From assembly GCF_009674675.1 (NCBI RefSeq), contig NZ_WKJC01000001.1:124001-188000 (forward strand): a stretch of 64,000 nucleotides of DNA, given 5' to 3'. This document shows, piece after piece, positions 12,885-16,008 of this stretch. Each line of letters opens with the position of its first letter. Position 1 is the first letter of the stretch. The notes under the pieces are model-generated. The model searched no databases. It was given only the letters and a program-made list of their open reading frames with translations, and was not told the origin of the DNA. The stretch comes from Kangiella sp. HZ709. GTDB taxonomy: Bacteria; Pseudomonadota; Gammaproteobacteria; Enterobacterales; Kangiellaceae. The position numbers were made by a program, and so were the translations under genes.

Positions 12885-13250
12885 CTAAATCTTAATATCC
12901 ATTTCAAAATAAGCGTGTATTGGACAAAAAGCTAAACCCTTAACGCAGTTTTTATCACATGATTTCCAGCGGCAGCTATCAAAAGATAATCCCCCATGAT
13001 TATTGACCATCAATTGAACTCTAGTTTGCGTCATATCTAGCTTTAGCCACTCTTCTTTTGAATTCACTTTGACACACAAGCCAACTTGATTATTTTTAGC
13101 GATATCGATATGCCATAACTGTTTGCAATCAGAGCACTGATTTAAGGTGGCCCAGCGTTCTGGATCCCATTCAAGTTCATCTAAAGCCTTAAATGGATGG
13201 CTTTCATCGGTTCCTAGAATGATAGATTCTAATTGATTGCAATTACACAT
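12885..13250 (-). CDS. Cysteine-rich hypothetical protein, probably zinc-binding
   Basis: The family is not recognised. The 121-residue product has no signal peptide or membrane helix. Eight or more Cys/His residues are grouped like zinc ligands: CNC at the start, CSDCKQLWH in the middle (near residues 38-46), then CRWKSCDKNC and CPIHAYF at the end. The last set looks like a treble-clef or zinc-ribbon remnant. The gene starts 7 bp after the stop of the C15-like gene, so they are likely co-transcribed. Its 3' end converges with the acyltransferase gene, 8 bp away. Confidence 0.7.
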   Translation of the reverse strand: MCNCNQLESIILGTDESHPFKALDELEWDPERWATLNQCSDCKQLWHIDIAKNNQVGLCVKVNSKEEWLKLDMTQTRVQLMVNNHGGLSFDSCRWKSCDKNCVKGLAFCPIHAYFEMDIKI

Positions 13251-13257
13251 AGTTATT

Positions 13258-14391
13258 TTAGAGTTCTCTTCCGCCAGAAATTATTATATTTTTTATTTGC
13301 TCTACAATGGCTTTTTCTGCTTTCGGATCAAAGCCCTGAATACGAGGTGTATGTAAATGCCCAATGGCAATTTTAGAATTTAACTTACGAGCTAAATTGA
13401 TACTGCGATAGGATATTTCGTTGGATAAATATCCGCCGCCAGAACCGGAGACTGAAGTTTTATCCAATAGTTCTTTCAAAGATTGCGCATCGAAAGTTTT
13501 ATCAGTTGTAGAGACGGTCCGTCTATCATTCACTTTGTAAGGTGTTTTAATAGACTGCATTGCTTCGACTGGCAAACTAAATTCAACAAACTCTGGGCCT
13601 TGCAATGTGTTCTCTCCAACTTTTGGTACTAATGGATTGATTTTGGTAGCCCCGGTATAAACATTTAAATTATCTGGTGCTTCAGCTGATCGCCTAAGTG
13701 CAGGAAAGCGCTCTAGGTCAAAGTGATCTCTACCCATACTAATAGTGACGATCATATCTACAGCATTATTTGACAGGTAGGGTTCTAAAAAACGCTCCAC
13801 TTCTCCATGATCGAAATCTGCAAAACGCACTGGAAAAATAGCGCTTTCAATTTGGATAAGCTCATCATCAATTTGATAAGTTTTTCCATCAAGCATTAGA
13901 GCGGCTAGACCAGAGGGGTTACTTTGCCCAATATTTCTATCAAGGAAAAAAGGATCAAAACCAGTAATAAGAATCTTCTTTGTAGCTTTGTCAGAAAAGT
14001 TTATATCATTTTGACCGCGGGAAGCTCTTTCCATTTCCCAAAAAATAGGCTCTTTAATATTAGATACTTGCTTGATAGCTGCTGATAATTTTAGCCTTGC
14101 CCAATAGAGACTCCTATCGTCATAAGTCGAACTGTTTGATTGAACATCTGCCACTGAGTTAAGCCATAAGTTATTGGCATAATTTAAAGACAGCTGAGAC
14201 AGATCTTCTTTTGAAAGCTTTGAGGCGACCTGGTTAAAATTATTTAGCAATAAACTATACCGGCTGGCTGTTGCTTTCAAGGCTTGATTAGCTTTGTTAA
14301 TTCGAGCTTCTTCAACATTTATCTCTGAAGCAGTTAATACAGCGCTTCGTAAAAGGATAATCAGTAATAATAGGTATCTTTTATATGTCAT
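13258..14391 (-). CDS. Secreted pyrrolidone-carboxylate peptidase (C15)-like protein with Ser at the catalytic Cys position
   Basis: The 377-residue product has an N-terminal hydrophobic signal (YLLLLIILLRSAVLTASE), a helical region to about residue 135, then a domain like peptidase family C15. Seen motifs are ILITGFDPFFLDRN with NPSG (residues 140-161), the region around the catalytic Glu (FDLERFPALRR, Glu227), GGGYLSNEISYRS (318-330) and IGHLHTPRI (His345/347). In true pyroglutamyl peptidases the GGYLSN motif reads with Cys in place of Ser; here codon 323 is TCC (13423-13425). Export is also unusual for C15 enzymes, which are normally cytosolic. It lies in a run of three minus-strand genes for envelope or unknown proteins. 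Activity is uncertain: it may be a serine-type variant or non-catalytic. Confidence 0.72.
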   Translation of the reverse strand: MTYKRYLLLLIILLRSAVLTASEINVEEARINKANQALKATASRYSLLLNNFNQVASKLSKEDLSQLSLNYANNLWLNSVADVQSNSSTYDDRSLYWARLKLSAAIKQVSNIKEPIFWEMERASRGQNDINFSDKATKKILITGFDPFFLDRNIGQSNPSGLAALMLDGKTYQIDDELIQIESAIFPVRFADFDHGEVERFLEPYLSNNAVDMIVTISMGRDHFDLERFPALRRSAEAPDNLNVYTGATKINPLVPKVGENTLQGPEFVEFSLPVEAMQSIKTPYKVNDRRTVSTTDKTFDAQSLKELLDKTSVSGSGGGYLSNEISYRSINLARKLNSKIAIGHLHTPRIQGFDPKAEKAIVEQIKNIIISGGREL

Positions 14392-14430: not shown

Positions 14431-16008
14431 CTAACATTGAATTGGTAGTGGCGAACAATAATCTTGTAGCTCAATCACCTGAGACGGCAGCTGATGTAGT
14501 TTATTAGAATGTTCATACTCATTTGAATAAATTGAGATGATTACATCATCACCTTCGTAAGTGCTTTGGTAAGTGGTGCTTTCAATTAAACCTTGTGAAT
14601 ATTTATAATTAATTTCTTGATAAGGATTTCTAGCTATATATTGATATTTAACAAGCTGATCTGCATCCCACTCATATGAAAATACCTCCAGAGGACTTGT
14701 CAATAATGAGTTTTCTACACGCTCTAATTGATTGAATTCATTATAGAAGTAATCAAGACTCCCTGCTAAAACAGTGTTTCCGCTTATAATCTCTTGAGAA
14801 CTGCTTTTGATGAGGTTCCATGTGTTGTATTCATTATTCTTTTTAATTGTTTGATCTGGATAAACTTGTTCTTCAAAGGAGGGTAACCCATAATCATTAT
14901 ACAAAAAGCTAAAGGACAAAAGGGTTTGCATATCCTGAGTGTTTACTTTTATAGACGATCTAAGGCCTAGCGAATATTCTCTATCAGTTACTGTTTTATT
15001 TCCTTGGGTATCTTCTCTTACGCTCTGTACGATAAGGCCGTTTTCTATAGTATTGCGGGTAGAGGATGTTGGAGTAGTAGTGTCATTAGCAGAGAAAACA
15101 TTTGTTTGTAAAATGTTTCCGTAAATATCATGATTGCTAATACTTTTCTGTAAGTTACTATCGGTAATGATAGTTTCGACTAAAATACCATTGGTGTATT
15201 TATACTCCGTACTATCTAAATCAGTCGATACTTTTGTTAACAAACCATTATCATATTCTCTATCGATAGTATAAGAAGTATTATCAACTTGGTCGCTAAC
15301 TATAGTAGTTACTAAATTATCATCGGAATCATAAATATACTCATAGGTAGTATCATGATTATAATCAAACGTGTTTACCATATCTTTATACTGGTAAGTT
15401 TGTTTGTAGGTATTGAGAAGAGAATTTAACCAGCCTTGTTCTATATATTTATTCAGTACAGAAATATTATCTATCACAGGTGCTTCTATGCTATTAGTCG
15501 CTAAAATGTAAGCTGGGGGTTGTCTCATAAAGTAAGCAAACGTTGGAGCGCTAATAGCTAAAGTAGCAGGTAACTCAATTCCATCAGATAAATCTTGGTT
15601 GATATCTAAATGATAGAAGTGTGATAGGAGCTTAATCAGCTCACTTGTGCGTAATTCTTTTAATGATTTTGTATACTCTATTTCAGCGGATCCAAATTCT
15701 TCGATAGCCTCAAGTATTTGTATTTGAGTCAATGATTGTAAATCGAATAGTTGTGTGAGACTGATTTCTTCATCGGCTGAAAGCGTCGCTATCTCTAATC
15801 CCTGATAGCTGAATGTAATGTCGTCATTTGAGCGGAACTGGAAAAAACCATCAACTAAGGTTCCAGATAAATTACTAGAGGTATTATAAGTTAAGTTAGT
15901 TATAGGAAGACCAAATTTTCCTTGCTTTATAGTATTGGCTTCCGTATTGCTTGAGGAGCCACATGAAAGTAGTAAACCAAGGAAAAAAAGTACTGTTAGA
16001 GTTTTCAT
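14431..16008 (-). CDS. Lipoprotein with YD/RHS-like repeats
   Basis: This is a 525-residue predicted lipoprotein. The signal peptide ends in a lipobox, LLSC, with the lipidated Cys at residue 16, followed by GSSS. From about residue 215 the protein is a series of beta-hairpin-like units of the type YEYIYDSDDNLVTT, REYDNGLLTKVST, YKYTNGILVETIITD and FSYEWDADQLVKYQYI, which resemble the YD repeats of RHS/wall-associated proteins. The N-terminal 210 residues are not recognised. A GGAGG ribosome site supports the start. It is 39 bp upstream of the C15-like gene. No toxin domain is visible at the C-terminus. Confidence 0.72.
   Translation of the reverse strand: MKTLTVLFFLGLLLSCGSSSNTEANTIKQGKFGLPITNLTYNTSSNLSGTLVDGFFQFRSNDDITFSYQGLEIATLSADEEISLTQLFDLQSLTQIQILEAIEEFGSAEIEYTKSLKELRTSELIKLLSHFYHLDINQDLSDGIELPATLAISAPTFAYFMRQPPAYILATNSIEAPVIDNISVLNKYIEQGWLNSLLNTYKQTYQYKDMVNTFDYNHDTTYEYIYDSDDNLVTTIVSDQVDNTSYTIDREYDNGLLTKVSTDLDSTEYKYTNGILVETIITDSNLQKSISNHDIYGNILQTNVFSANDTTTPTSSTRNTIENGLIVQSVREDTQGNKTVTDREYSLGLRSSIKVNTQDMQTLLSFSFLYNDYGLPSFEEQVYPDQTIKKNNEYNTWNLIKSSSQEIISGNTVLAGSLDYFYNEFNQLERVENSLLTSPLEVFSYEWDADQLVKYQYIARNPYQEINYKYSQGLIESTTYQSTYEGDDVIISIYSNEYEHSNKLHQLPSQVIELQDYCSPLPIQC

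Follow-up and report, generated by a model that had tools for sequence, protein, structure and literature searches.

A protein that carries Ser where pyroglutamyl peptidases have their nucleophilic Cys may be an enzyme that works in another way, a dead relative or an error of sequencing, and this is the question raised by a gene of Kangiella sp. HZ709. The gene lies in the window, by which we mean the whole stretch of 64,000 nucleotides that was analysed (contig NZ_WKJC01000001.1), and occupies positions 13258-14391 on the minus strand, as do all of its features described below. Its frame, read from the ORF and its translation, is open from an ATG start and encodes 377 amino acids followed by a stop. 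A sequence-only reading had described the product as an exported C15-peptidase-like protein with Ser323 (TCC, 13423-13425, in GGGYLSNEISY) in place of the catalytic Cys and with Glu227 (GAG, 13711-13713) and His347 (CAT, 13351-13353) retained; re-reading of the sequence gave the same ORF, frame and codons. In Pfam, residues 138-244 matched PF01470 (Peptidase_C15) at 32.3 bits (curated cut-off 22.7), and the scores against the NCBIfam models of pyroglutamyl peptidase I (PGP-I) lay far below their cut-offs (TIGR00504, 22.4 bits vs 201.75; PRK13197, 32.4 vs 199). No metal-enzyme family appeared among the Pfam and NCBIfam matches of the protein up to E 1. The same genome contains no canonical C15 paralog, as PF01470 matches up to E 1 fell only within 13258-14391.

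The full-length AlphaFold2 model, made with 62 relatives, reached a pLDDT of 94.6 and a pTM of 0.91. Compared in VIA, residues 138-377 (13261-13980) superposed on the C15 structure 5z40 with a Z of 20.3 and an rmsd of 2.3 Å over 194 aligned residues; the top 23 entries were all C15, and the next, purine nucleoside phosphorylases and a carboxypeptidase, followed at Z 9.8. Foldseek, with the predicted model as query, also returned only C15 entries at ranks 1-34 for these residues (E 1.2e-11). As modelled, residues 138-377 adopt the C15 (pyrrolidone carboxyl peptidase) fold, and the structure prediction that the sequence-only reading had proposed as a check thus found the expected scaffold, with Ser323 being placed at the nucleophile position by alignment. 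The preceding residues 23-137 (13981-14325) were predicted as an all-helical domain, which AlphaFold modelled alone with a pLDDT of 92.7. Among solved structures Foldseek gave no confident match for this domain (best E 2.8), and its best VIA entry was a designed helical protein (Z 8.6, rmsd 2.8, 79 residues aligned), values in a range that is common for helical bundles.

To place the three residues, the family (63 rows) was aligned with 31 canonical C15 proteins, 30 of them from the same order as the window and one from a plasmid. This profile-profile comparison (hhalign; probability 98.3, E 1.9e-14) paired Ser323 with the C of FVCN, Glu227 with the E of PERVAIN and His347 with the H of FVHVP. 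In the joint alignment, position 323 was Ser in 148/148 family rows, including the window protein, and Cys in 31/31 canonical C15 proteins; position 347 was His in 148/148 and 31/31, and position 227 was Glu in 146 family rows, Asp in the other 2, both from Tenacibaculum, and Glu in 31/31 C15. The two Phe of the C15 GF.PF motif, found as GFDPF at residues 144-148 (13948-13962) of the window protein, were likewise kept (Phe145 in 147/148 and Phe148 in 145/148 family rows; both in 31/31 C15). Of the 150 distinct family rows, two are absent from this alignment, namely a short fragment from L040 and L106, in which residues are unknown. Position 323 is filled in 149 of the 150, with Ser in 149/149. 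In addition, the SNE motif, and hence Ser, is present at all 57 places that a protein search returned from the order (295 genomes), a set that was not chosen for Ser and that includes the source genome itself; in L213 the contig ends within the motif. The codon for Ser323 is AGY instead of TCN in two of the 149 rows (L099 and L091), both in one part of the tree, indicating that Ser was kept through a change requiring more than one base. The homologs that were to reveal either a conserved or a random residue at this position therefore show a conserved one, all three residues fall on the C15 triad as had been claimed, and a random Ser or a sequencing error is ruled out by the presence of Ser in every family row with a letter there. 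The best sequence matches of the window protein, both in phmmer and in a profile search, were entries of the P. furiosus enzyme that have Ser at this place, YLSN aligning on YLSN; we take these entries to be engineered Cys-free variants.

The joint alignment also revealed family-specific residues at several other positions, indicating that the surroundings of the active site were rebuilt and that loss of the thiol is not the sole change. Glu325 (13417-13419), beside Ser323, is Glu in 148/148 family rows and His in 28/31 C15; Arg329 (13405-13407) is Arg in 148/148 and Gly in 28/31 C15; and His345 (13357-13359), two residues ahead of the triad His, is His in 148/148 and Phe in 31/31 C15. Ser218 and Arg234 vary little or not at all among family members, the C15 rows having Gly at the former and mostly Asp at the latter. 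The N-terminal domain has invariants of its own: Arg125 is invariant or nearly so, and in the motif DDRxLYWxR (residues 91-99, 14095-14121) Asp92, Arg93 and Trp97 occur in 149/149 rows with a letter and Arg99 in 148/149. The Gln of the C15 motif GQAGGR binds pyroglutamate. Residue 219, its best-aligned counterpart, is Met in 102 of the 150 rows, those of the window's clade among them, Gln in 42, Arg in 5 and a gap in 1, an alignment that is uncertain because the loop changes length there.

Relatives were found in Gammaproteobacteria, Burkholderiales, Actinomycetota, Bacteroidota and Thermodesulfobacteriota. Within the order, the protein search found the family in 56/295 genomes and 15/99 genera. 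Profile searches, which like all of these surveys count the genome on which the sample is centred, found it in 13/398 genomes of the phylum sample, in 2/369 of the window's class (sample centred on G452), in 26/246 from the class to which the Streptomyces genome behind L114 belongs and in 1/242 from that of the Desulforhopalus genome, the one being the source genome itself. A scan of genome contigs returned at least 315 relatives, of which the best 80 were taken; one of its two patterns contains YLSNE, and these 80 loci are thus partly selected for Ser. Eight plasmid records also carry relatives, from Enterobacter, Streptomyces, Kitasatospora, Tenacibaculum (two), Burkholderia, Tsukamurella and a comamonad. 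A second Tenacibaculum strain has a copy of the gene that is split across several annotated ORFs (L040:4540-5726). In the tree, the family and C15 lie on opposite sides of one branch with a support of 100/100, in an analysis whose bootstrap had not settled and whose 22 canonical C15 rows were drawn from a single bacterial order and a plasmid. A locus from the window's own family (L028) groups there with a Kangiellaceae MAG (L080), pointing to Kangiellaceae as the probable family of the source genome. A phage origin was considered and rejected, as viral contigs and phage records contained no relative and the viral fold library gave no match under E 0.001. We judge the relatives to be a distinct and probably mostly extracytoplasmic C15-like family in which Ser replaces Cys, set apart by an N-terminal domain and by invariants that the canonical C15 rows lack.

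With regard to export, residues 1-21 of the window protein (14329-14391) form a hydrophobic leader, for which the cleavage site is a guess. The leader-like N-terminus, which had been called a signal peptide from the letters, is supported by reading of the translation and by a crude hydrophobicity score, and it is probably a Sec signal peptide. The score, which takes ATG starts only, was passed by 88/150 family rows, 5 of the 88 having a lipobox-like motif, vs 1/31 canonical C15 proteins, which were scored on a nearly identical version. In a selection of the rows that failed the score, inspected by eye, streptomycete members had leaders that probably begin at GTG or TTG start codons. No leader was recognisable by eye in 4/5 members titled Pseudomonadales and in several actinobacterial members. 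Leaders thus occur in many but not all members, indicating that export is common in the family and not universal. Seven members from gammaproteobacterial MAGs (L099, L101, L102, L103, L105, L106 and L110), four of them titled Pseudomonadales and the other three being L099, L106 and L110, were leaderless by eye, and these proteins may be cytosolic. The two members with an AGY codon differ in this respect, L091 having a leader and L099 having none recognisable by eye.

We also compared the gene neighbourhoods. The window gene sits between a gene for a 525-aa protein, followed by asnS, and a small Cys-rich ORF. The 525-aa protein (14431-16008, minus strand, just upstream) is lipoprotein-like, with YD-like repeats by eye, and the Cys-rich protein (12885-13250, minus strand, just downstream) has 121 aa; neither has a family match over the cut-off. 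Neither was matched in the other family loci compared, whose flanks differ in length (mostly 1.5 to 8 kb), and therefore no functional partner was found. Among the other loci of the same genus with flanks, asnS was present in 9/10. Four conserved genes follow the family gene in 20 to 22 of the 87 loci, most of these being from Shewanella and close relatives; we take them for sprT, endA, rsmE and gshB, the fourth presumably being gshB. The first three names are those given for a Shewanella locus (PMC3480492). A conserved operon partner was nevertheless rejected, since this four-gene order is confined mainly to Shewanella and close relatives and the neighbours in the window are unmatched. On the conjugative IncHI2A plasmid pOXA436, a relative with the Ser motif (L033:7926-9083) lies between blaOXA-436, with lysR beyond it, and sprT, indicating that a Shewanella-type family gene hitchhikes with a carbapenemase gene. 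A search for near-identical DNA in E. coli genomes with the pOXA436 gene as query found no relative.

In two organisms the Ser-C15 module was found in the setting of an injection system. In the Tenacibaculum T6SS locus (L036/L197; L197:17259-19569), the module gene lies directly downstream of a "phage baseplate assembly protein V" (VgrG-like) gene, and its 3' end is overlapped by 35 bases by a gene whose product has 186 aa and, by eye, a leader. This leader-bearing protein is as would be expected of a periplasmic immunity protein. Its likely mature end begins with Gln, in keeping with the Q-rule of Bacteroidota. In Desulforhopalus (L113), an ORF of 1043 aa carries eCIS_core and calpain domains and has the module at its C-terminal end, and it is followed by two ORFs with N-terminal regions that look similar by eye; L113:4123-11451 is perhaps an eCIS cargo cluster. 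The Pfam C15 match of L113 is below the cut-off (19 vs 22.7 bits), and the family profile matches it with E 6.6e-60 and 1.2e-24. Fusion of DUF4157 to C-terminal toxin domains is described for eCIS (PMC8213781), and the main texts of PMC8213781 and PMC11297309 contain no mention of pyroglut-, C15 or PF01470. Such settings were seen only in L036/L197 and L113; the window gene is neither in an injection-system locus nor fused to a delivery domain.

On this evidence, we consider it about an even chance (roughly 0.5) that the window protein is an extracytoplasmic serine-type hydrolase on a C15 scaffold, with the putative triad Ser323-His347-Glu227. Such a hydrolase is argued for most strongly by the retention of Ser, His and Glu/Asp across phyla, together with the Phe pair of the pocket. 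The T6SS and eCIS_core payload settings, from two organisms only, also appear to support a hydrolase. The strongest objections to the hydrolase are that Ser is a poor substitute for Cys, a swap that normally leaves a thiol enzyme inactive, and that other invariant residues came in along with it. The leaderless members count against an extracytoplasmic location holding family-wide. An ordinary cytosolic PGP-I that only seems to have lost its Cys through a sequencing or annotation error would agree with the placement in PF01470 and with the public annotation of two plasmid relatives as pyroglutamyl peptidase. However, it is refuted by the conservation of Ser wherever a family row has a residue at this position, the NCBIfam PGP-I scores of at most 32.4 bits stand against cut-offs of 199 or more, and neither the extra N-terminal domain nor the leader belongs to such an enzyme; we regard its probability as negligible.

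The pattern of conservation appears to favour an enzyme over a binding protein, and it would also allow a remodelled site built around the invariant His345, Glu325 and Arg329. In general, the inactivation of thiol enzymes typically begins with a Cys-to-Ser change, and the family could be a pseudoenzyme in which the C15 pocket was kept for binding a ligand such as a pyroglutamyl group or another group at an N-terminus, with Ser holding the pocket or the ligand. Retention of the GF.PF Phe pair would agree with this, as would Met, in the majority of rows and in the window's clade, at the uncertainly aligned counterpart of the C15 Gln. More of the triad is usually missing from pseudoenzymes, however, whereas here Glu/Asp and His are invariant together with Ser across phyla, and the T6SS and eCIS_core settings suit an enzyme better, so that we think a pseudoenzyme rather unlikely. 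His345, Glu325, Arg329 and Ser218 changed along with the Cys, and the site may therefore work in another way. One form of this would be a remodelled, possibly metal-dependent hydrolase in which a metal is held by His345 and His347 (HxH), Glu227 and Glu325, Ser323 having a role other than that of nucleophile. Both His345 and Glu325 are specific to the family, and residues 342-348 form one strand in the AlphaFold model, which should turn 345 and 347 to a common side. Against a metal site, His347 and Glu227 align exactly with the C15 triad positions, and the Pfam and NCBIfam matches named no family of metal enzymes; we hold it to be improbable.

If the serine-type hydrolase is correct, Ser323, together with His347 and Glu227, would act as a serine-type nucleophile in place of the Glu-Cys-His triad, and the helical N-terminal domain, with Arg329, Glu325 and His345, would probably reshape the substrate site. 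The protein would be secreted in its Kangiella host, and its target would be a peptide or amide of the cell envelope or outside the cell. A broader proposal, which we put forward tentatively as possible yet doubtful, is that these proteins form a class of serine hydrolases in their own right, built on the C15 scaffold and directed at bacterial envelope or extracellular targets, which free-living bacteria export by Sec and which have been redeployed as an injected antibacterial effector of T6SS and eCIS. As a speculative form of this proposal, the branches that keep the Gln might remove the N-terminal pyroglutamate that protects exported Bacteroidota proteins, an idea grounded in the Q-rule for such proteins (PMC10653852, PMC5837995). 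Were Ser the nucleophile, the family would exemplify the natural conversion of thiol enzymes into serine enzymes; otherwise, it could be a fixed binding protein. The names 'peptidase C15' and pyroglutamyl peptidase, as used in publications and public records, are possibly misleading for these proteins, including those whose genes travel beside OXA-48-type carbapenemases, and the injection-system settings point to a target worth finding. Beyond the sequence-only reading, the analysis shows that the protein belongs to a widespread family having an N-terminal domain and invariants of its own, and that members occur in injection-system settings in two other phyla.

The family has been little noticed, and a Shewanella member is already in print: the gene adjoining blaOXA-48-like genes in Shewanella is named 'peptidase C15' (PMC3480492, PMC9604219). 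The relative on pOXA436 shares the gene order given in these two papers and belongs to the Ser family; the passages concerned only name the Shewanella gene and are silent on the Ser and on the N-terminal domain. Pyroglutamyl-peptidase domains have also been reported in polymorphic toxins and in PVC secretion-system loci (PMC3482391), that is, the same fold in toxin settings like those of L113 and L036, in passages that describe neither a Ser-for-Cys replacement nor the N-terminal domain. Among the open-access papers listed in literature searches, no title or abstract opening describes a C15 family with Ser for Cys, and none of the papers joins C15 with type VI secretion or pyroglutamyl peptidase with a serine nucleophile.

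Canonical C15 enzymes are cytosolic, stand-alone proteins of ~200 aa without a leader, whereas the window protein has 377 aa, a leader-like N-terminus and an extra domain. The family resembles PGP-I (MEROPS C15, PF01470) in its predicted fold, in GF.PF and the NP after it, and in the Glu and His of the triad, and it shares with C15 in the joint alignment the Asn right after the nucleophile and the Tyr five residues past it. It differs from C15 in having Ser for Cys, the extra helical N-terminal domain and, frequently, a leader, as well as the family-specific His345, Glu325, Arg329 and Ser218 and NCBIfam PGP-I scores far below the cut-offs. The catalytic triad of C15 is given as Glu-Cys-His (PMC12445089), and in the family the Cys position is Ser in each of the 148 rows; the Ser-His-acid arrangement of a serine-type hydrolase is instead present, as far as the sequences tell, in the form of invariant Ser, His and Glu/Asp at the active-site positions.
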